Below, in pieces: positions 37,824 through 46,764 of a DNA stretch of 46,764 nucleotides (position 1 is its first letter; every line of letters begins with the position of its first letter). Under the pieces are notes generated by a model. That model searched no databases, was not told the origin of the DNA, and saw only the letters and a list, made by a program, of their open reading frames with translations. This DNA is from an uncultured Bacteroidales bacterium. Its GTDB lineage: Bacteria > Bacteroidota > Bacteroidia > Bacteroidales > UBA4417. The stretch is from contig CAIRMR010000138.1 of assembly GCA_903879715.1 (NCBI GenBank), forward strand, positions 1-46,764, read 5' to 3'. Made by a program: the position numbers and the translations under genes.

Positions 37824-39326
37824 GTGGCTGATAAAAATATCAAAGCATTTTACAATTGGCTTAGCCTTACAGGCTTTATTGTTACAGCCAATAGCTTGAT
37901 TTTAATCCTGGTGCTTTATCTTTATTCAGTTTTTTCAACACAAACCAGTACTTCCCTGGGTCTCTACATTTATATTGTATTACCGGCATTTTTGGTTTTA
38001 GGGTTGATTCTGATTCCTGTTGGAGTTGTTATCAATATCCGTAAAAGAAAAGCAGCGCAGCTACGAAATGAATCATGGCCGGTAATTGATCTTAATAAAA
38101 GGGAGGATTGGGGCACTGTTGTGAAGATTTTTCTTATCACTACGATTTTTCTGATAGCATCAGTCATGGGTACTTTTAGGGCTTATCAATATACCGAATC
38201 AAATGAATTCTGTGGTAAGCTTTGTCACCAGGTGGAAGAACCTGAGTACGTAACTTATCAGCATTCGTCCCATGCCAGGGTTACCTGTGTCGAATGTCAT
38301 GTTGGGCAGGGAGCCGACTGGTATGTCAAATCAAAACTATCGGGACTATACCAGGTGTATTCTACCCTTTTCAAAAAATACCCAAGACCTGTACCCACTC
38401 CTATTCATAGCATGCGGCCTGAACGCGAAACGTGTGAACGCTGCCACTGGCCCGAAAAATTTTATTCCAGGAAACTACGTGTACAACGCTCATACCTGGC
38501 TGATTCAGCCAATACCGAATGGAATTTGTCCCTTGTCATGAAAATAGGTCCGGAATTTAAATCAATGGGTAATTCGGAAGGCATACATTGGCATATTAAT
38601 AAAAACTTCAGGATTGACTATATTTCTGATACACGCGACCGGGAAAGCATACCTTGGGTAAAGCTTACTAACCTTAAAACAGGAGAAGTTAAGATTTTCG
38701 AGGATGAAGAAAATCTACTTGAGAAGAAAACTCTTGATAAACTGGAAGTACGCACAATGGATTGCATGGATTGTCACAACCGCGCATCCCATCTCTTTAA
38801 ATCCGCGCCCGATTATCTTGATAATGCTTTCGTTACAGGCCTGATTCCAAAGAATCTGACTTATTTCAAGGAAGCAGCCATGGAGGCATTAAAAATACCT
38901 TTTCAGGATAAAGAGGTTGCCATGCGTGAGATAAGCGAAACCATTATAAAATACTACAAGGACAAACATCCGGAAGTGCTGAAATCGGAGGAACAACTTA
39001 TTACAAAGGCGATTGCAGCTATCCAGGCAGAATACAACCTGAATGCATTTCCCTATATGAGGGCTGATGCAAGTCAATACCCCAATCACATTGGGCATTT
39101 GGAATCGGAAGGTTGTTTCCGATGCCACTCCGACAGGCATAAGACGGCAAAAGGGGAAACCATTTCAAGAAATTGTGAAACCTGTCACACCATTATTGCG
39201 CAAGGTCCAACCGGAAATATCTCCAACGCCTATATTAATTCGACACTTCCGTTTGAACATCCAACTCAGATAAAAGAGAAGTGGAAAACTAAGTTCTGTT
39301 CAGAATGCCACAAGGAATTATATTAA
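37824..39326 (+). CDS. Seven-haem NapC/NirT-type membrane cytochrome c (copy 1)
   Basis: 500 residues, starting at GTG 37824 (consistent with alignment to copy 2). Three N-terminal membrane helices (about 16-37, 46-70 and 98-119), the third leading into the haem domain. Haem sites: an unusual CX3CH (C130-C134-H135), then CXXCH at C155, C204, C314, C431, C451 and C492. The block from NEFCGKLCH through CVECHVG to the CERCHWPEKFY segment is the NapC/NirT signature, here longer than tetrahaem NapC/NrfH. Such proteins take electrons from menaquinol to periplasmic partners. A downstream oxidoreductase is not visible, so the acceptor is unknown. It is clearly paralogous to 42360-43859. Confidence 0.93.
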   Translation: MADKNIKAFYNWLSLTGFIVTANSLILILVLYLYSVFSTQTSTSLGLYIYIVLPAFLVLGLILIPVGVVINIRKRKAAQLRNESWPVIDLNKREDWGTVVKIFLITTIFLIASVMGTFRAYQYTESNEFCGKLCHQVEEPEYVTYQHSSHARVTCVECHVGQGADWYVKSKLSGLYQVYSTLFKKYPRPVPTPIHSMRPERETCERCHWPEKFYSRKLRVQRSYLADSANTEWNLSLVMKIGPEFKSMGNSEGIHWHINKNFRIDYISDTRDRESIPWVKLTNLKTGEVKIFEDEENLLEKKTLDKLEVRTMDCMDCHNRASHLFKSAPDYLDNAFVTGLIPKNLTYFKEAAMEALKIPFQDKEVAMREISETIIKYYKDKHPEVLKSEEQLITKAIAAIQAEYNLNAFPYMRADASQYPNHIGHLESEGCFRCHSDRHKTAKGETISRNCETCHTIIAQGPTGNISNAYINSTLPFEHPTQIKEKWKTKFCSECHKELY

Positions 39327-39402
39327 TTTGTTGGTTTTCATAAGTTAAATGAGAAATTCAAGTTTTACACGGTCTGATATCATACAAATCCGAAATACAT
39401 AC

Positions 39403-40833
39403 ATGAAAATACTGCTTACCGGTAGTACTGGTTACATTGGAAAAAGGTTGTTGCAACAATTGCGGGAAGAAGGTCATGAAGTAATCTGTCTTGTCAGGAA
39501 CCTGGAACGCTTAATGACTTCCGAACAATCGATGGAAGGAATCCGTGGGATTGAAGCCGATCTTCTGAAACCTGTCCCTGCTTCACTTTATATTTTGGAT
39601 ATTGATGTAGCATTCTACTTGATCCATTCCATGTCAACATCCATTTCGGAGTTCATGAATGAAGAAGCTTTGTCGGCCGGTAATTTCGCAGAATTTATTA
39701 AAAACACAAATTGCCGGCAAATTATCTACCTGAGCGGGATTTCCAATTCAAAAAAGCTTTCCAGGCATTTGCAATCCAGGAGGAATGTCGAAGATATTCT
39801 GCAGAAATCAGAAAAACATGTCACTGTTCTCCGGGCCGGAATCATTGTAGGAAGCGGAAGCGCTTCATTCGAGATTATCAGGGACCTGATGGAAAAAATG
39901 CCGGTGATCGTTGCCCCGACCTGGGTAAAAACGCTTTGCCAGCCGATAGCTGTGGGAAATGTTCCAAAATACCTTTTAGGATGCATGCTCAATCCGGCAA
40001 CTTACGATCAAACGTTTGATATAGGAGGAGCAGAGATACTTTCATATAAACAAATGATGCTGCAATATGCCGAAGTCAGGGGATTGAAACGGCACATATT
40101 TGTAGTACCGTTTATAAGTCCAAGGATTTCTTCATACTGGCTTTACTTCGTAACTTCTACCTCGTATTACCTGGCAGTTAACCTGGTTGACAGCATGAAA
40201 GTAGAAGTAGTTTGCAAGGATACGAGGCTTAAAGATATATTGGGAATCACTCCGCTAACTTATAAGGAAGCCTGCAAAAGGGCGTTGGAGAGAATTAACC
40301 TGGATACAGTTCAGTCGAGCTGGACTGACGCTGTTTCTTTTAAAAAACCCGGGCAGCTGTTTCAACGCCTGGAAGTTCCGACCTACGGAGTGATGCACGA
40401 CAGGCGGATTTTACATATCGATGGCGATCCGCAACGTGTTTTGAACAAAGTATTTTCAATTGGCGGTGATACAGGCTGGTATTATGCGGACTGGATCTGG
40501 AAAGTGAGAGGTCTGATAGATAAAATGGTCGGTGGCGTTGGACTAAGAAGAGGAAGGCGAAGTGTAGCTGACCTGAATCCGGGCGATTCGTTGGATTTCT
40601 GGCGGGTACTGATTGCCGACAGGGATAAAATGCGATTGTTATTGTTTGCCGAAATGAAAGTTCCCGGCGAGGCATGGCTCGAATTCAAGATCGTAAAAAA
40701 AACGGATGGATATTACCTTTACCAGACTGCCACATTTATGCCTCATGGATTAAGCGGAAGGATGTACTGGTACCTGTTATTACCAATACATTTGCAGATG
40801 TTCAAAGAAATGATCAGGGCAATTGTTAAATAA
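39403..40833 (+). CDS. SDR family NAD(P)-binding protein with DUF2867 C-terminus
   Basis: 476 residues from the ATG at 39403, chosen because it directly precedes the Rossmann motif MKILLTGSTGYIGKRLLQ; the frame is open 18 codons further upstream. Residues 1 to about 290 are an atypical (COG0702-type) NAD(P)-binding domain with TGSTGYIG, YLIHSM and IYLSGIS. Residues about 320-476 are of the DUF2867 type (VFSIGGDTGWYYADWIWKVRG, LNPGDSLDFWRVL, WYLLLPIHL). The role is probably modification or quality control of a hydrophobic substrate, but it is not known. It lies between the two NapC-like paralogues. Confidence 0.85.
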   Translation: MKILLTGSTGYIGKRLLQQLREEGHEVICLVRNLERLMTSEQSMEGIRGIEADLLKPVPASLYILDIDVAFYLIHSMSTSISEFMNEEALSAGNFAEFIKNTNCRQIIYLSGISNSKKLSRHLQSRRNVEDILQKSEKHVTVLRAGIIVGSGSASFEIIRDLMEKMPVIVAPTWVKTLCQPIAVGNVPKYLLGCMLNPATYDQTFDIGGAEILSYKQMMLQYAEVRGLKRHIFVVPFISPRISSYWLYFVTSTSYYLAVNLVDSMKVEVVCKDTRLKDILGITPLTYKEACKRALERINLDTVQSSWTDAVSFKKPGQLFQRLEVPTYGVMHDRRILHIDGDPQRVLNKVFSIGGDTGWYYADWIWKVRGLIDKMVGGVGLRRGRRSVADLNPGDSLDFWRVLIADRDKMRLLLFAEMKVPGEAWLEFKIVKKTDGYYLYQTATFMPHGLSGRMYWYLLLPIHLQMFKEMIRAIVK

Positions 40834-40905
40834 TGTCAGAAAAATATAACAGAAGCACATTTCGTTTTGTCATTGCTAAAAAATAAGTACTAAAAGAATT
40901 ACAAT

Positions 40906-41280
40906 ATGGAAACTGCCTTTCGGATAGGTGATGCAAGCCCATGGGTACTTATTCCCATCCTGCTTTTCATTGTGCTGATCCTTTATTTTCTGCTCAAATT
41001 TTTCTCGGTACTCTTCGATTTCATACAAGCCAAAGGCTGTCTCACAGTCGGACTTATTGCCCTTGTTGGATTGCCAGGAATAGTAGTCCTTAGTCTTATT
41101 TCCGGGTCAACAATTGCAGCTACACTATTAATCATCTTTGCTGTTGTTGGTGTAATTACAGGTTACATAGCCCGTGATTCGGAAGGGAATGTTGGTAAAT
41201 TCGGGCTTTTCATAATGATTGTTTCAGCCATAACCTTGATTACCGCTCTCCTGATTAAACTTATTCTGGTATTTTTTTAG
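40906..41280 (+). CDS. Small membrane protein of unknown function
   Basis: 124 residues, about three or four hydrophobic segments (about 12-35, 43-68, 70-88 and 97-124), with one charged loop (ARDSEGNVGKFG). Not recognised. It starts 72 bases after the SDR-type gene on the same strand and may be co-transcribed. No cysteines suggestive of haem or iron-sulfur binding (a single C46). The next gene, a cytochrome c, appears to have its own promoter. Confidence 0.7.
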   Translation: METAFRIGDASPWVLIPILLFIVLILYFLLKFFSVLFDFIQAKGCLTVGLIALVGLPGIVVLSLISGSTIAATLLIIFAVVGVITGYIARDSEGNVGKFGLFIMIVSAITLITALLIKLILVFF

Positions 41281-41328
41281 GACGAATAAGAACATCACAT
41301 GCACTTATTTATATATTTTTATACGAAT

Positions 41329-41361
41329 GACCAACTGGTCTGATATTTCTTTTTACCTTTG
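41329..41361 (+). promoter_or_regulatory. Cytochrome c promoter with palindrome
   Basis: TACCTTTG (-7, TAnnTTTG) lies at 41354-41361, 47 bases before the ATG. An inverted repeat GACCA-ac-TGGTC sits at 41329-41340, ending 13 bases upstream of it, at the position of an activator or repressor site. No TTG -33 is present, which fits a regulated promoter. Confidence 0.55.
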
Positions 41362-41407
41362 GAATAAATATTGCAATACAACTTAAAATAACTTAAATCT
41401 ACCAATC

Positions 41408-41815
41408 ATGAAAAATTCAAAACTTGCTGCATTACTTTTTACAGCAATCCTTTTTATCGCAGCAAATGTTGCTATGGCACAAAAAGCTGGTGGTCCCTGG
41501 ACTATTCCTGCTAAGTACAAATCAATGAAGAGCACTGTTAAAGCCGGTGATCCGTCAATTGCTACTGTTGGAAAAGACCTATACCTGAAGAATTGCAAAT
41601 CCTGTCATGGTGCAAAAGGTTTGGGCGATGGTACAAAATCAGCCAGCTTGAAAACATTGATTCCTTCATTTGCTGATGCTAAATTTAAAGGTCAAGGTTT
41701 AGGTGATGTTTACTTCCAGTCTTTTGTTGGTCGTGACGAAATGCCTAATTTTGAAAAGAAAGTTACTGACGAAGCCGACAGGTGGGCACTCGTGGCCTAT
41801 ATCAAAAGCTTGTAA
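41408..41815 (+). CDS. Exported monohaem cytochrome c
   Basis: 135 residues: signal peptide (hydrophobic 8-20, cleavage near AMA-QKA at 24-25), then a short class I cytochrome c domain. The haem site is CKSCH (C61 and C64, H65); the likely axial methionine is in RDEMPNFEKKV and the C-terminal helix (ADRWALVAYIKSL) is typical. A small soluble periplasmic electron carrier, possibly accepting from or giving to the multihaem NapC-like proteins on either side. A strong terminator follows within 20 bases, so it is a separate transcript. Confidence 0.93.
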   Translation: MKNSKLAALLFTAILFIAANVAMAQKAGGPWTIPAKYKSMKSTVKAGDPSIATVGKDLYLKNCKSCHGAKGLGDGTKSASLKTLIPSFADAKFKGQGLGDVYFQSFVGRDEMPNFEKKVTDEADRWALVAYIKSL

Positions 41816-41834
41816 TAATTTTTCAGCTTAACTT

Positions 41835-41867
41835 AAAAAGGTGTCCTATTCAGGTCACCTTTTTTTT
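41835..41867 (+). terminator. Rho-independent terminator after cytochrome c
   Basis: A-run, stem AAAAAGGTG-t-CC, loop TATTCA, then GG-t-CACCTTTTT and an eight-T run. The only mismatch in the stem is T-T. A strong, probably bidirectional terminator. Confidence 0.9.
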
Positions 41868-42359
41868 GTCCATAATTTTCCATAAACATAAAAACTGATT
41901 GTGCCAGAAGTGGCTTTTGCTGATACAATTTCGCCTGTAACAAGATTATATTCCAACATTTCTTTCCTTACATTCCAAGCACTTGTTACGTGGAATGCAA
42001 TAATTATTAATTGATAATAAACTACCTCGCCGCAAGCGGCCGAGGTATCAGCAAAGGATTTCTTTTCCATTTCGCCCATAGGGGCTAGGAATAAGACCTG
42101 GGAGATCCCTCGACTTCGCTCGGGATCAGTTCGACTAGATAATTTCAGTTCACTACCGTTCCTGAAATTATAGTCTCACTGATTCAACTTAGTTTTGAGG
42201 ATATTGGAAAAGATTCAAACGCTGTTCTCCACTGCTATTAAGACTACTTATAAATAGCACAAGCCGTAATAAATTTTAGTATTATTACTTACTTTTGTTC
42301 AAACAATATATCTAGATATCTAACTACCTGCATAAACACAATTTAAATTCCGCATCATC
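41868..42359. repeat. Hairpin-rich, repeat-bearing spacer before cytochrome copy 2
   Basis: About 490 bases without a supported gene. It holds TACCTCGCCGC-aa-GCGG(C)CGAGGTA at 42023-42047; GATCCC...GGGATC at 42104-42127 around CGACTTCGCTC; and ATAATTTCAG-(13)-CTGAAATTAT at 42139-42171, extendable outwards with GACT/AGTC. The CGACTTCGCTC word is the reverse complement of part of the repeat at 22951-23022. An open frame of 74 codons on the minus strand (41855-42079) crosses the first hairpin and is probably not a gene. A -7 element is at 42290-42297. Confidence 0.6.
42290..42297 (+). promoter_or_regulatory. -7 promoter element for cytochrome copy 2
   Basis: TACTTTTG (TAnnTTTG) lies 62 bases before the ATG. 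The short repeat TTGTT-ca-AACAA overlaps its end (42295-42306). No -33 TTG was seen. Confidence 0.5.
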
Positions 42360-43859
42360 ATGAAAATGCCTAGAAATGCGTATAACTGGATAACCATTAC
42401 AGGTTTTCTGCTGGCAGTTAATAGCCTGATAGTAATTATTTTACTTTTTCTGTTTACCATGCTCCAGAGTGAAAGTAATCCCTATATGGGATTATTCACT
42501 TTCATCGTTTCGCCGGCGTTTTTGGTATTGGGGCTTCTGTTGATCCCTATAGGAATGTTGAATAAGAGGAGGAAAATGAAAGGTCAGGAATATGCTACGC
42601 AAAAATGGCCTGTTTTAGATATGAACAACAAAATTAACCGGACGGCTGTAGTAAGAATTTCAATAATCACCCTTGTTTTACTCGTAGCAACAGCAATGGG
42701 AAGTTACCAGGCTTTCCATTATACTGAGTCAGTAAAATTTTGCGGTGAACTTTGTCACAAGGTGATGGAACCGGAGTATACTGCTTACCAAAATTCGTCG
42801 CATGCCAACGTAAGATGTGTTGAATGCCATGTAGGCGAAGGAGCAGGCTGGTATGTTAAATCCAAATTATCAGGGCTTTACCAGGTTTATTCAGTAATCT
42901 TCAAGAAATATTCAACTCCGATTGAAACACCTCTTCGTAACCTTCGTCCGGCCAGTGAAACCTGCGAAAGATGCCACTGGCCTGAAAAGTTTTATTCCCA
43001 GAAGCTCAGAAACCTGCGCTCGTATATTGCTGATTCAGGTAATACAGAATGGAATACATCACTATTGATGAAAATCGGTCCGCAGTATAGCGCCAAAGGT
43101 CTTTCGGAAGGGATACACTGGCACATTAATAAAGGGATTAAGATTGAGTATGCCGCAGGCACTAATGACAGGGAAAGCATTCCATGGGTGAAATATACGG
43201 ATTTAAAATCCGGTAAAGTCAAGATATTTATGGACGAAGAAAATCCGGTTGACAACAAAGCACTTGATTCCCTCGAAAAAAGAACTATGGATTGTATGGA
43301 CTGCCATAACCGTCCGTCGCACAAATATTTATCGGCCCCTAACTTTATTGATAATGCAATGGTTTCCGGTAAAATTCCAGCTGATATCCCTTTCATTAAA
43401 ATGGCAGCCATGGAAGCACTGAAAGTCACTTATAATACCAAAGACAGTGCTCATATGGCAATTAAAGATGTAATAGTAACGTATTATAAAGACGAACAGC
43501 CCGAAGCTTATGCCAAAAACACACAGCGTATAAACAAAGCTATACTTGCTATTATTGGCGAGTATGATAAAAATGTTTTCCCTTTTATGAAAGTTGATGC
43601 AACCAGGTACCTCGATCATATCGGTCACCTGGAATCGGATGGTTGTTTCCGCTGCCATTCCGACAGGCATAAAACAGCTTCCGGAGAAACTATATCCAGG
43701 AATTGTGATATGTGTCATAGTTTCCTTGCTCAGGGTCCTACAGGAAAAGTTCAGACAGTTGCTTTAGGAAATTCGATGGAATTTGTTCACCCTACCGAAA
43801 TCCGGGGTAAATGGAAAACAGCTCTTTGTTCCGAATGCCACAAAGTTCTTTATGAATAA
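42360..43859 (+). CDS. Seven-haem NapC/NirT-type membrane cytochrome c (copy 2)
   Basis: 499 residues, collinear with copy 1 at 37824 and identical at well over half of positions by eye. Three N-terminal membrane helices (about 11-34, 43-66 and 96-119). Haem sites: CX3CH at C128-C132-H133, then CXXCH at C153, C202, C312, C429, C449 and C490; the spacing matches copy 1. The same DRESIPWVK and GIHWHINK blocks are present, with His residues that may be distal haem ligands. Probably takes electrons from menaquinol. Divergence is concentrated in the membrane helices and in the region about 355-400. A terminator follows at 43953. Confidence 0.93.
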   Translation: MKMPRNAYNWITITGFLLAVNSLIVIILLFLFTMLQSESNPYMGLFTFIVSPAFLVLGLLLIPIGMLNKRRKMKGQEYATQKWPVLDMNNKINRTAVVRISIITLVLLVATAMGSYQAFHYTESVKFCGELCHKVMEPEYTAYQNSSHANVRCVECHVGEGAGWYVKSKLSGLYQVYSVIFKKYSTPIETPLRNLRPASETCERCHWPEKFYSQKLRNLRSYIADSGNTEWNTSLLMKIGPQYSAKGLSEGIHWHINKGIKIEYAAGTNDRESIPWVKYTDLKSGKVKIFMDEENPVDNKALDSLEKRTMDCMDCHNRPSHKYLSAPNFIDNAMVSGKIPADIPFIKMAAMEALKVTYNTKDSAHMAIKDVIVTYYKDEQPEAYAKNTQRINKAILAIIGEYDKNVFPFMKVDATRYLDHIGHLESDGCFRCHSDRHKTASGETISRNCDMCHSFLAQGPTGKVQTVALGNSMEFVHPTEIRGKWKTALCSECHKVLYE

Positions 43860-43952
43860 ATGACAATCTGCTTCTCAAATCTTATTAAAATCAATAGGAT
43901 TTGAGTTTTTTATCATCCAGATTGTATCTGTATGCATAAGTAATAACAATTT

Positions 43953-43980
43953 AAAAGCCATCTGCTTTCGGGTGGCTTTT
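43953..43980 (+). terminator. Hairpin terminator after cytochrome copy 2
   Basis: AAAAGCCA / TGGCTTTT stem, 8 bp, loop of about 12 bases, with flanking A- and T-rich ends; about 95 bases after the stop. Could work in both directions. Confidence 0.75.
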
Positions 43981-44025
43981 GCTTTTCGAACCTGTTGACG
44001 CATTTTTACGTTAAAATTGAGATTT

Positions 44026-44033
44026 TATCTTTG
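44026..44033 (+). promoter_or_regulatory. -7 promoter element for the outer-membrane barrel gene
   Basis: TATCTTTG at 44026-44033, 41 bases before the ATG at 44075; a second match TACTTTTG lies at 44046-44053. Either could be the -7 element. Confidence 0.5.
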
Positions 44034-44074
44034 TCAGCATTTTAGTACTTTTGGATTTAAATTAATATTCTCAC

Positions 44075-44773
44075 ATGCCAAAGAACTCCCACCTCATTAT
44101 CATACTCATTGTAAGTAGTTTATGCATTAAATCCATTTCGGCTCAGAAATACAATTCATTTGTTGGAATAAGGTTTGGCGGTGCTTTACCCATGGGGCAA
44201 TTTGCATCCCACGAATTTGGAAAAGGCGGGTATGCTTTGTTAGGAAAGAGTTTTGGAGGAGAAGCTGCCTGGTTTGTTTCACCAAAACTGGGATTCGGAG
44301 TTGATATTTCCATGAACTCATTTGATTTTGCATCAGGCTATTATGCAGAGGATTACCTGCAGAATGCACCGGAGTATAAAAGTGTTGACTTGCTTTCCGG
44401 GCCTTACAAACTTTCAACTTATATGGCTGGTGCATATTATAAAATAGCCTTAAGCCCGAAACTTCACACAAGTTTTAAACTAATGGGAGGAATATTCAAA
44501 ACAAGAACACCAGATCAATTTTATGGGGTTAACACTTTCCTGGTGGGTAGAATGAACTTCTGGAAAACGAGTTCTCAATCATTAAAATTCGCTTTTCTCA
44601 CAGGGGCATCATTTGAGTACAAGTTATATGAACAGGTAAGCATTATGTTGCAAGCTGACTTTACATTCGCCCAGGCGGACTTTACATTTAATGCAGGTAC
44701 AACTTCCAGTTACACTGAACATCTTAATATGCCTGTTTTTAGGTTGCAGCCTGGAATAAATATCCATTTTTAG
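44075..44773 (+). CDS. Outer-membrane beta-barrel protein
   Basis: 232 residues: signal peptide (hydrophobic 7-20, cleavage near ISA-QKY at 23-24), then alternating strands rich in aromatic residues and glycine (FVGIRFGGALPMGQF, AAWFVSPKLGFGVDISMNSF, YMAGAYYKIALSPKLHTSFKLMGGI) and a terminal phenylalanine (GINIHF) as expected for barrels. Size suggests 8-10 strands, too small for the large porins of known porin-cytochrome conduits. Near the C-terminus ADFTF occurs twice in a row, perhaps a micro-duplication. It lies between the two groups of cytochrome genes; a role in electron transfer is only suggested by this position. Confidence 0.83.
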   Translation: MPKNSHLIIILIVSSLCIKSISAQKYNSFVGIRFGGALPMGQFASHEFGKGGYALLGKSFGGEAAWFVSPKLGFGVDISMNSFDFASGYYAEDYLQNAPEYKSVDLLSGPYKLSTYMAGAYYKIALSPKLHTSFKLMGGIFKTRTPDQFYGVNTFLVGRMNFWKTSSQSLKFAFLTGASFEYKLYEQVSIMLQADFTFAQADFTFNAGTTSSYTEHLNMPVFRLQPGINIHF

Positions 44774-45485
44774 GGCTGCAAAAAATATATTTTGAGATTT
44801 ATTTTTACTGTTTAATCCTATCTTCTTTAGACTTTTTAATAAGACTTAAAGTTAAGTTAACCACTTTTCTTAACAGCTTTTAATTAAAAAGACGGGAACT
44901 GAGTGTCTTTCTGTAAGTATTCCTATAAACCAATATAAATTATTCGGGCATAATATCCTAAAAATCTCACCTGGCAAAATATTTACAGGTTTAAGACAAA
45001 CAATAGTCCGTTAATAAATTTCAAACGATAAATTATCAGCAAGATACGAAATTTAGTCTTTATGCATTAAAGTGTTGACATTCTGCGTTTTAACACTTTG
45101 TGTCCAGTTCGGCTGGCTCACTGCATCGCTTTGCGGTTAAAAAAAATTACCGGAGTATTGGACAAAAACAACAGCGTTAAAAATTAAAAACACATTTAGA
45201 ATAATCATTATCAATTGTTAACCGATTAAGAGTATAATTTAAAGTAGCCATTACAGTATAATAACCAACCTCATTACATATATATAAATATTGCATTATT
45301 GACATATATCAATAAGAAACAGGAATATTTCCTTTGATACGGATAAATATATCATCGGCTTTTTTACCAACGCTAAAATATAATATCACAATTTTGCTTT
45401 GTTAATTTTATAACATTATATAAAAGCCTACACATAACAACGAAACCCTAATAATCAAACATAAACAAAACAAAACCAGTAAATT
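44774..45485. other. Long AT-rich spacer before the collagen-like cytochrome
   Basis: 712 bases without a supported gene, with many stops in all frames. It contains an FNR/CRP-like palindrome and a -7-like element (45299-45336, separate entry). The remaining sequence shows no tRNA, clear terminator or long repeat. The start of translation is about 140 bases beyond the probable promoter, so the mRNA leader may be long. Confidence 0.5.
45299..45336 (+). promoter_or_regulatory. FNR/CRP-like box and -7-like element before multihaem lipoprotein gene
   Basis: TTGAC-ATAT-ATCAA at 45299-45312 differs from TTGAT-N4-ATCAA at one position. 16 bases downstream lies TTCCTTTG (45329-45336), one base off TAnnTTTG. 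The box would be centred near -38 from the expected start site, where class II activators sit. Confidence 0.5.
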
Positions 45486-46764
45486 ATGAAAAAAAATTTC
45501 TTAGTGATCGGTGTTGGATTCCTATTTATCGGAGCCAGTATCTTCTCTGCTTGTACTAAAGAAGGGCCAATGGGCAAGACCGGCCCGGCTGGAGCTGATG
45601 GAAAAGATGGTGTTGATGCTTCAACAACATGTACCGAATGTCACAATCCTGCAACAGTTGAATTAGCTGCTACAGAATTCGAGTTTTCGAAACACAGCTA
45701 CGGTGAAGCCGCATTTGAAGAATCAGGCAATGTAGGATGTTCACCTTGCCATGCATCAGAAGCGTTCCAGTATGTTTGTAAAAACAATGTACCAGCAACT
45801 TTTACAATGGGTACTGATAACAGATGGACAAATAACTATAATACAATCGCTACTGCAGCTATTGGCGAAATTACCTGTGTAACCTGTCATAGCAGTCTTC
45901 ATACTACCTACACTTCGGCTGACATTCCTGCTTTGACAACTGTTGCTCCTGTTTCATTGACATTTTATGGTGGTGCAAAAGAAATCAACCTCACCCAGGA
46001 TGGCGGAATAAGCAATTTATGCGTTAAATGCCATCAGCCACGTCCTTTCACCAATTCGAATACAAACAAAAACGTACTTAATTATGACAGTTTGAAGAAT
46101 TTCCCAACTGTTGTATTTTATGATGCAGCTCAGGCTAATGGTTTGAACAAAATTAAACCTAGTTACAGAACACATACCCACTACGGAACAGCTGGTGCAG
46201 TATACGCTGGTAAAGGTGGTATTGAATTCGGAACCGGTTACACCAATTCACCACACACAACAGTTGCTTCATGCCAGGATTGCCATATGGCTACCCAAAC
46301 AGGCAGAGCAGGTGGGCACACATTTGTAGCTAAAGGAAACTTTAGTGGATGTAATGTAACAGGTTGTCATTCAGGAACAGGAACTGATTCACCCAAAATC
46401 ACCTCAGCAACTACCACAAAATACTGGAAACAAACCAGGGATAATGTAAAATCATTACTCGATCAACTTGCAGCAAAACTCACTATCGGTGGTGTTGATA
46501 TTCTGAACAGGAATAAAGATGCGGAATCAAACATGTGGGCTGCATTAACAACAAACAGCTATGATGGATATTTGAATATTTATGATCCTATTACCAACCC
46601 ATCAGTTCAAACATACAACGCTAGCAGTTTCCAATATATTGGAACACCTCCTTCCACCTGGTCACAGGCTCAGAAAGACTATAACGCAACATTGCCAAAA
46701 ATCACCTTGACAAACGCTCAAATGGGAGCTCTCATCAACTTCCAGTTATGTTTAAGGGATTATA
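45486..46764 (+). CDS. Multihaem c-type cytochrome lipoprotein with collagen-like stretch (partial)
   Basis: Open from the ATG at 45486 to the window end, 426 residues; the C-terminus is missing. Signal with lipobox ending at C23 (FSAC), so it is probably lipid-anchored at an outer-membrane surface. Residues 27-44 are six Gly-X-Y triplets (GPM GKT GPA GAD GKD GVD). Haem sites: CXXCH at C49, C85, C131, C179 and C263, and CX4CH at C289-C294. Further His residues (H70, H139, H230, H232, H257, H278) may be distal ligands. The sequence beyond 300 has no haem motif and is rich in N, T and Y. Probably an electron-transfer lipoprotein; the redox partner is unknown. Confidence 0.88.
   Translation, partial: MKKNFLVIGVGFLFIGASIFSACTKEGPMGKTGPAGADGKDGVDASTTCTECHNPATVELAATEFEFSKHSYGEAAFEESGNVGCSPCHASEAFQYVCKNNVPATFTMGTDNRWTNNYNTIATAAIGEITCVTCHSSLHTTYTSADIPALTTVAPVSLTFYGGAKEINLTQDGGISNLCVKCHQPRPFTNSNTNKNVLNYDSLKNFPTVVFYDAAQANGLNKIKPSYRTHTHYGTAGAVYAGKGGIEFGTGYTNSPHTTVASCQDCHMATQTGRAGGHTFVAKGNFSGCNVTGCHSGTGTDSPKITSATTTKYWKQTRDNVKSLLDQLAAKLTIGGVDILNRNKDAESNMWAALTTNSYDGYLNIYDPITNPSVQTYNASSFQYIGTPPSTWSQAQKDYNATLPKITLTNAQMGALINFQLCLRDY

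Follow-up and report, generated by a model that had tools for sequence, protein, structure and literature searches.

ImcH of the Geobacter group is described as a protein of 495-519 aa with three N-terminal helices, an adjacent atypical CX3CH motif and six CX2CH motifs, which resembles NapC only in helix 3 and haems 1-3; the same survey lists one Bacteroidetes homologue and also names Melioribacter roseus (PMC6295460). Here we analyse a locus encoding two proteins with this signature in an uncultured Bacteroidales bacterium, at positions 37824-46764 on the + strand of contig CAIRMR010000138.1. The window, i.e., the whole stretch of DNA analysed, is this entire contig of 46,764 nucleotides (C138 of genome G000, which comprises 6.07 Mb in 223 contigs). 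Of the seven genes of the locus, g1-g7, two encode 7-haem proteins and one each a monohaem cytochrome c, a small protein resembling a barrel and a 6-haem lipoprotein; g2 and g3 are two further genes. We put at about 0.55 the probability that the locus is one half of a Bacteroidota electron-export module, in which ImcH-type and CbcL-like proteins would oxidise quinol and the electrons would exit via the lipoprotein g7.

Other described systems bear on the remaining parts of the module. In CbcL, MtrH and MtoC, a multihaem c part is combined with a HydC/FdnI-like cytochrome b (PMC6295460), and OcwA of Thermincola potens is a cell-surface terminal reductase that also uses soluble substrates (PMC6703420). 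Among Bacteroidetes, putative genes for extracellular electron transfer (EET) have been reported in humic-lake genomes (PMC6344600), six multihaem genes and a barrel in an anode-enriched genome (PMC8258643), and several possible EET pathways in a Prolixibacteraceae genome (PMC10504345). Since such gene sets are already in print, the suspicion of EET in Bacteroidota is not new. For the reduction of Fe(III) and Mn(IV) by Labilibaculum, the only candidates that its authors could name are NrfHA-type cytochromes and a ferric reductase known from prediction (PMC5760507). In the literature searched (including PMC7829351, PMC9765461 and PMC13374861), most hits being judged from their listing, no paper describes the module considered here and none names DUF5777, and a whole-word search for ImcH in Bacteroidales returned an imcH that belongs to a Pelobacteraceae genome.

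Two seven-haem proteins with the ImcH signature

A six-frame count over the 46.8 kb of the window finds 20 CXXCH strings in the + orientation, 18 of them inside the g1-g7 cluster, and a single one on the - strand, so that the cluster is not a product of chance. An earlier note, made from the sequence alone, had proposed five electron-transfer genes here. All five are present, although its title passed over g2 and g3, which lie between them, and its tally of 7 + 7 + 1 + "at least 6" haems is correct except that the last figure is exactly 6.

The genes g1 (37824-39326; 500 aa, GTG start) and g5 (42360-43859; 499 aa) encode proteins 58% identical to each other, each with one CX3CH beside the membrane part, followed by six CXXCH. 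Hydropathy peaks indicate three transmembrane helices at both N-termini (near residues 13-31, 51-69 and 97-115 in g1), and both lengths lie within the range published for the Geobacter group. In g1, the part resembling NapC/NirT comprises helix 3 and haems 1-3, with PF03264 matching residues 99-186 and the NrfH model residues 104-208, a region spanning the haems at 130, 155 and 204. The scores of g1 are far below the family cut-offs (61.2 versus 134.2 bits for NrfH and 18.7 versus 310.6 bits for NapC/NirT), and membership in the tetrahaem NapC/NrfH/CymA group is rejected. The label "NapC-type" given in the earlier note is corrected accordingly: both proteins carry the signature published for ImcH. 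The assignment of g1 and g5 as ImcH-type follows the published family description, Geobacter ImcH itself being compared by description only.

A contig scan for ImcH-type relatives yielded at least 527 confirmed stretches, the best 80 of which are referred to below as the named loci; these are the nearest relatives and not a fair sample. The full-length proteins encoded there (n=81) share the motif pattern in 80 of 81 cases, with three helices in 77 and two in 4. By title, most of the named loci are Bacteroidota; the others are Melioribacteraceae, Calditrichota and a few groups that appear once each. In a tree of 94 rows, which includes Melioribacter relatives, g1 and g5 fall into two sister clades, g1 together with loci in which ImcH is followed by g2 or g2-g3 and g5 together with L157 and L158. 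Because both clades contain loci from outside the genus, a recent tandem duplication is rejected. Across the phylum, an ImcH-type protein was detected at E <= 1e-60 in 51 of 345 sampled genomes. Judging from these family features, oxidation of menaquinol is the most likely role of the ImcH-type proteins, and of their CbcL-like partners described below, in line with the route from menaquinol to the periplasm that had been proposed for the locus.

A hexahaem lipoprotein of the NrfA/OcwA superfamily

The last gene, g7 (45486-46764), encodes 426 aa up to the contig end, where its frame is open. Read on into the overlapping contig C97, the frame stops 24 codons beyond the window, giving a protein of 450 aa with no added haem motif, so that five CXXCH and one CX4CH account for all six haems. 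The N-terminus carries a lipobox-like Cys 23 followed by Gly-X-Y repeats, and 6 of 19 members of the g7 family match Collagen. Residues downstream of the lipobox may direct Bacteroidota lipoproteins to the cell surface. In a profile search against the PDB, the best match of g7 was 6i5b (E 2e-19), which we take to be the structure of OcwA, the code being mentioned once in the OcwA paper (PMC6703420), followed by NrfA (7e-13), octahaem nitrite reductase (9e-8) and MtrC (1e-6). The MtrC/MtrF domain was matched at E 0.001 by 14 of the 19 family members, and PF02335 scored 32.0 bits on the window g7 against a cut-off of 24.1.

By its sequence, g7 is a lipoprotein-like member of the NrfA/OcwA superfamily. 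It is neither NrfA, as its translation contains no active-site CXXCK, nor OcwA proper, having six haems instead of nine, so that the kinship with OcwA holds at the superfamily level only. Six His residues outside the haem motifs are conserved in at least 17 of the 19 sequences; these would suffice to cap six haems, leaving no open haem site. The predicted model of g7 reached a pLDDT of only 57, and its fold search (best match NrfA, E 1.5) was therefore set aside and is not used as evidence.

A recurrent module in related genomes

In relatives, whose genes were labelled by longest-frame calling and BLAST without recourse to annotation, the predicted products of these genes belong to a recurrent set: a Crp/Fnr regulator, the hexahaem lipoprotein, a monohaem lipoprotein (mhLP), a DUF5777 barrel, a monohaem c (cB), a heptahaem c (HEPT), a cytochrome b561 and ImcH, joined in some cases by 4Fe-4S and NrfD proteins. 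The set is contiguous in the sister species G003, whose g1 is 95% identical to that of the window. Its contig C89 carries a divergent Crp/Fnr gene, mhLP, DUF5777, cB, HEPT, b561, 4Fe-4S, NrfD, X300 and g1-g6, and its contig C58 begins with g7 and a C1 peptidase (L042, L133). In the genome of the window, the half from Crp to X300 lies on contig C32 (L119).

Across the 16 genomes of the genus, including our own, 13 have an ImcH-type match beyond the NrfH-like stretch. ImcH is whole in 11 of these and a piece at a contig edge in G005; in G015 (L130, contig C241), the frame is broken by one TAG and is either a pseudogene or a sequence error. Of the remaining genomes, G006 gave a weak NrfH-like match only, and G010 and G013 gave no ImcH-type match. 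Gene order varies: G009 runs from Crp to b561 and then g1-g5, with no FeS, NrfD or X300 gene; in G001, g7 follows X300; G015 has DUF5777, cB, HEPT, b561, g4, the broken g5 and g7; and in G020, from another family, b561 is followed by g7, g6, a monohaem c and g5. Of the 80 named loci, 17 combine mhLP, DUF5777 and 7-haem HEPT in the neighbourhood of ImcH; one is that of the cultured Sunxiuqinia dokdonensis, in which a gene for cytochrome c maturation, of the ResB/CcsA type, comes next. In two Marinifilum genomes (L244, L245), three small or mid-size genes separate g7 from a b561-HEPT-cB-DUF5777-mhLP-Crp series, ImcH being located elsewhere.

Nearly all listed copies of HEPT have both an N-terminal and a C-terminal hydrophobic segment, and b561 has four. 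A multihaem part together with a HydC/FdnI-like cytochrome b corresponds to the CbcL/MtrH/MtoC layout, so that the HEPT-b561 pair looks like a split CbcL. A natural HEPT-b561 fusion of 526 aa with 7 haems is encoded in G004 (L122, contig C24, 7149-8729). The DUF5777 protein is about 300 aa long (317 aa in the copy on C32), and the model of the L152 copy is a 12-strand barrel (pLDDT 82) whose best PDB neighbours include OmpG and FapF.

Other multihaem genes were seen in the same surveys. Some relatives have cytochromes with 12-19 haems next to ImcH, in L177 and L218 one of 931 aa with 19 haems, and the L177 copy has a b561 domain of its own. A search for a 19-haem relative of L177 in our genome, run without a positive control, gave no match. 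A second FeS/NrfD set, comprising a 553-aa protein, NrfD, 4Fe-4S and a tetrahaem c, lies beside ImcH or convergent with it (L043, 15045-19459; also L045, L051, L053 and L177). Elsewhere in G000, contig C56 encodes, after a 143-aa gene, a protein of 905 aa that combines 12 haem motifs with a cytochrome b domain (L121, 5608-8759), and contig C24 encodes a TPR-repeat protein of 769 aa that carries 8 haem motifs (L149, 5126-9389), together with a 420-aa membrane protein resembling cytochrome b and a 176-aa Rieske-like gene, both recognised by eye.

Co-occurrence of the module genes across the order

Conserved co-occurrence, which the earlier note had put forward as a check, was assessed in 247 genomes drawn evenly from the order, the counts ignoring kinship among them. 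With presence cut-offs of E 1e-60 for ImcH, 1e-40 for HEPT, 1e-25 for g7 and 1e-60 for NrfA as a comparison gene, these were present in 48, 55, 63 and 105 genomes, respectively. ImcH was accompanied by g7 in 44 of 48 genomes (12.2 expected) and by HEPT in 37 of 48 (10.7 expected), and HEPT by g7 in 48 of 55 (14.0 expected). Many of these pairs are also physically close: HEPT and g7 lie within 10 kb on one contig in 38/48 cases, HEPT and ImcH in 16/37 and ImcH and g7 in 16/44, and all three genes share one contig in 15/34.

The region to the right of the window

The break of the contig coincides with a repeat. At its end, the window shares 63 bp with the start of reversed C139 and 141 bp with the start of reversed C97; C97 also has an overlap of 141 bp with the end of reversed C139. 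On C139, the haem region of g7 recurs in a second copy, with 82% identity over 1.07 kb. The end of g7 is reached at the same distance on both paths, and 3' of it there is a C1 peptidase gene, whole on C97 and truncated on C139. On C97, it is followed by what are presumably MoxR/Bat-type genes. No reductase was found directly downstream of the window on C139 or C97. The earlier note had offered two alternatives, a terminal enzyme to the right of the window or a little-described Bacteroidota electron-export system. Since that place is taken by the C1 peptidase, another multihaem protein, a product bearing a type IX secretion tail and the Bat-type genes, a reductase operon directly downstream is rejected and the second alternative survives. 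NrfHA is encoded in the same genome, on contig C34.

The g7-like frame on C139 (L006, 2-1597) is itself of note. It encodes 532 aa with 5 haems, another N-terminal domain replaces the lipobox and the first haem, and the Gly-rich stretch is missing. Adjoining it, positions 1603-2088 encode the 161-aa protein with the type IX secretion tail (PF18962).

Other genes and signals of the locus

Between the two ImcH-type genes lie g2 (39349-40833), encoding a haem-free protein of 494 aa in which an NAD(P)-binding short-chain dehydrogenase/reductase (SDR) is fused to DUF2867; g3 (40906-41280), a small membrane protein of 124 aa without a Pfam match; and g4 (41408-41815), a monohaem cytochrome c of 135 aa with one CXXCH. 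The SDR-DUF2867 protein travels with ImcH, recurring 3' of it in several families and in 12 of the 80 named loci. Downstream of g5, g6 (44075-44773) encodes a secreted, possibly barrel-like protein of 232 aa that has no haem motif and gave no match in Pfam (at E 0.01) or NCBIfam. Its earlier description as an outer-membrane barrel is plausible from the sequence; however, close relatives were found only in the genus (90% and 65% identity in two species, compared with 22-24% in three loci outside), and the barrel that recurs is DUF5777, encoded in our genome on C32 together with a second group of quinol-facing genes.

A terminator-like hairpin, a match to consensus only, lies 3' of g5 (43874-43905, + strand), and the region holds 13 such hairpins versus 7.3 expected. 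Promoter-like sites show no excess (30 versus 27.2 expected from shuffles), and an Rfam search of the window gave no match. By composition, the locus is not a foreign island (GC 0.390 versus 0.399 in the rest of the window), and a plasmid search gave a single NapC-type match, of 34% identity over 21% of g5.

Proposed electron route and alternative explanations

We propose that the module is probably a route that pushes respiratory electrons out of the cell. At low oxygen, the Crp/Fnr-type regulator would turn the module on. In the inner membrane, the ImcH-type proteins and the HEPT/b561 pair, acting as a split CbcL-like oxidase, would oxidise menaquinol, and the monohaem cytochromes would ferry the electrons through the periplasm. 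The outer membrane would be crossed at the DUF5777 barrel and its monohaem lipoprotein, and the electrons would leave through g7 to an external acceptor, for example an oxide of Fe(III) or Mn(IV), a humic quinone or a partner cell.

Several points weigh against this proposal. The proposal is read from the genes, the ImcH assignment goes by the published description of the Geobacter protein, and the crossing of the outer membrane, the placing of g7 at the surface, the control by low oxygen and the nature of the acceptor are inferred. In our genome, the two halves of the module stand on separate contigs (C32 and C138), although such a split is not unusual, as the g1 and HEPT loci are apart also in G012, G002 and G001. 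Near ImcH, only the 17 named loci mentioned above carry mhLP, DUF5777 and HEPT together, some contigs being short, and 23 of the 80 carry a g7-like protein, 5 of these being longer 9-haem ones; ImcH therefore often stands apart. Furthermore, NrfA is also positively linked to the module genes, being found with ImcH in 29 of 48 genomes (20.4 expected, p 0.006), with HEPT in 38 of 55 (23.4 expected) and with g7 in 39 of 63 (26.8 expected). This association is weaker than that of the module genes with each other, yet a general respiratory lifestyle may explain part of the co-occurrence. Finally, no known porin-cytochrome conduit is present in the module, which makes the outer-membrane crossing both the weak point of the proposal and its most interesting one. 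It is conceivable, albeit on balance unlikely, that Bacteroidota have an outer-membrane gate of their own, in which a 12-strand DUF5777 barrel and a separate monohaem lipoprotein (a split, Cyc2-like arrangement) would replace a large porin with a multihaem plug, be fed by the ImcH-type and split CbcL-like oxidases and pass electrons to a stalked, hexahaem, OcwA-like surface lipoprotein.

The matches of g7 to nitrite reductases in the PDB profile search, which likewise speak against export, raise the question of whether g7 could itself be a terminal reductase, fed by ImcH and acting on nitrite, hydroxylamine, a sulfur oxyanion or a similar soluble acceptor, with no electrons passed to solids. 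The E values for NrfA and octahaem nitrite reductase and the PF02335 score above its cut-off would fit such a role, as would the reduction of nitrite and hydroxylamine reported for OcwA (PMC6703420). Nevertheless, this explanation appears unlikely, given that the conserved His residues could cap all six haems, that the window g7 is devoid of CXXCK and that the genome already has NrfHA on another contig. Monohaem class I cytochromes commonly serve oxidases and peroxidases. Their recurrence in the module would suit a system that keeps the periplasm at redox poise by feeding a peroxidase, a terminal oxidase or a general pool, with g7 as a buffer and no exit from the cell, but the recurrent lipoproteins, the outer-membrane-type barrel and the OcwA-like match of g7 all point to the outer membrane and render this scenario improbable.

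We consider it highly improbable that the module runs inward, from Fe(II), a cathode or a partner to the quinone pool. In relatives, the FeS/NrfD complexes found next to ImcH or in its vicinity are quinone-linked and could work in either direction, CbcL-type proteins occur in Fe(II) oxidisers too (PMC6295460), and the pairing of a monohaem protein and a barrel is reminiscent of Cyc2 as presented in PMC6344600. In PMC6295460, however, ImcH homologues are found in Fe(III) reducers only and are implicated only in the oxidation of quinol. Electron export thus remains our preferred explanation. If it is true, one module with ImcH-type and CbcL-like oxidases would place many uncultured Bacteroidota among the candidate electron exporters. 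The module is a testable candidate for the reduction of metals or humic matter in this phylum, and with it the DUF5777 barrel family gains a conserved gene context. Because the module is carried by two Marinifilum genomes, from the family of Labilibaculum, and by the cultured S. dokdonensis, the question can be tested directly.

Comparison with known systems

The window proteins resemble Geobacter sulfurreducens ImcH, as described in PMC6295460, in length, the three helices, the CX3CH, the six CX2CH and the limited NapC likeness, but differ in that two copies of different clades adjoin each other and in their constant partners HEPT, b561, DUF5777 and g7. For g7, OcwA is the best solved relative, sharing the NrfA/MccA superfamily and the C-terminal region; however, OcwA has nine haems and a Gram-positive host, whereas g7 has six haems, a lipobox and the Gly-X-Y stretch, and the single-stretch alignment covers part of the length. 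The HEPT-b561 pair is likened to CbcL/MtrH/MtoC by layout, combining multihaem and cytochrome b parts, which form a single polypeptide in G004. In contrast to CbcL, they are two genes in our genome and in most loci, and our own pair is therefore not assigned to these one-protein families.

The overall design, in which a quinol oxidase of the inner membrane and periplasmic cytochromes are combined with an outer-membrane barrel and an outer lipoprotein cytochrome, recalls the Mtr/Pcc systems (PMC6344600, PMC6295460). Unlike in those systems, the barrel of the module is small and its partners are monohaem. In the two loci of our genome, to which this search was confined, the only barrel candidates are DUF5777 and g6, their neighbours are monohaem or anchored 7-haem proteins, and a large porin with a multihaem plug was not found. 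Only other relatives (L186, L217, L219) have sets in which a haem-free barrel-like protein (388-425 aa) is joined by 12-14-haem and 7-10-haem proteins. The gene sets suspected of EET in Bacteroidetes (PMC8258643, PMC10504345, PMC6344600), likened here by description, consist of multihaem clusters with a barrel or of Phs/NrfD/4Fe-4S/multihaem cytochrome (MHC) genes. Our best reading is that an export system joining ImcH-type and CbcL-like oxidases, as proposed here, is hardly described in Bacteroidota.

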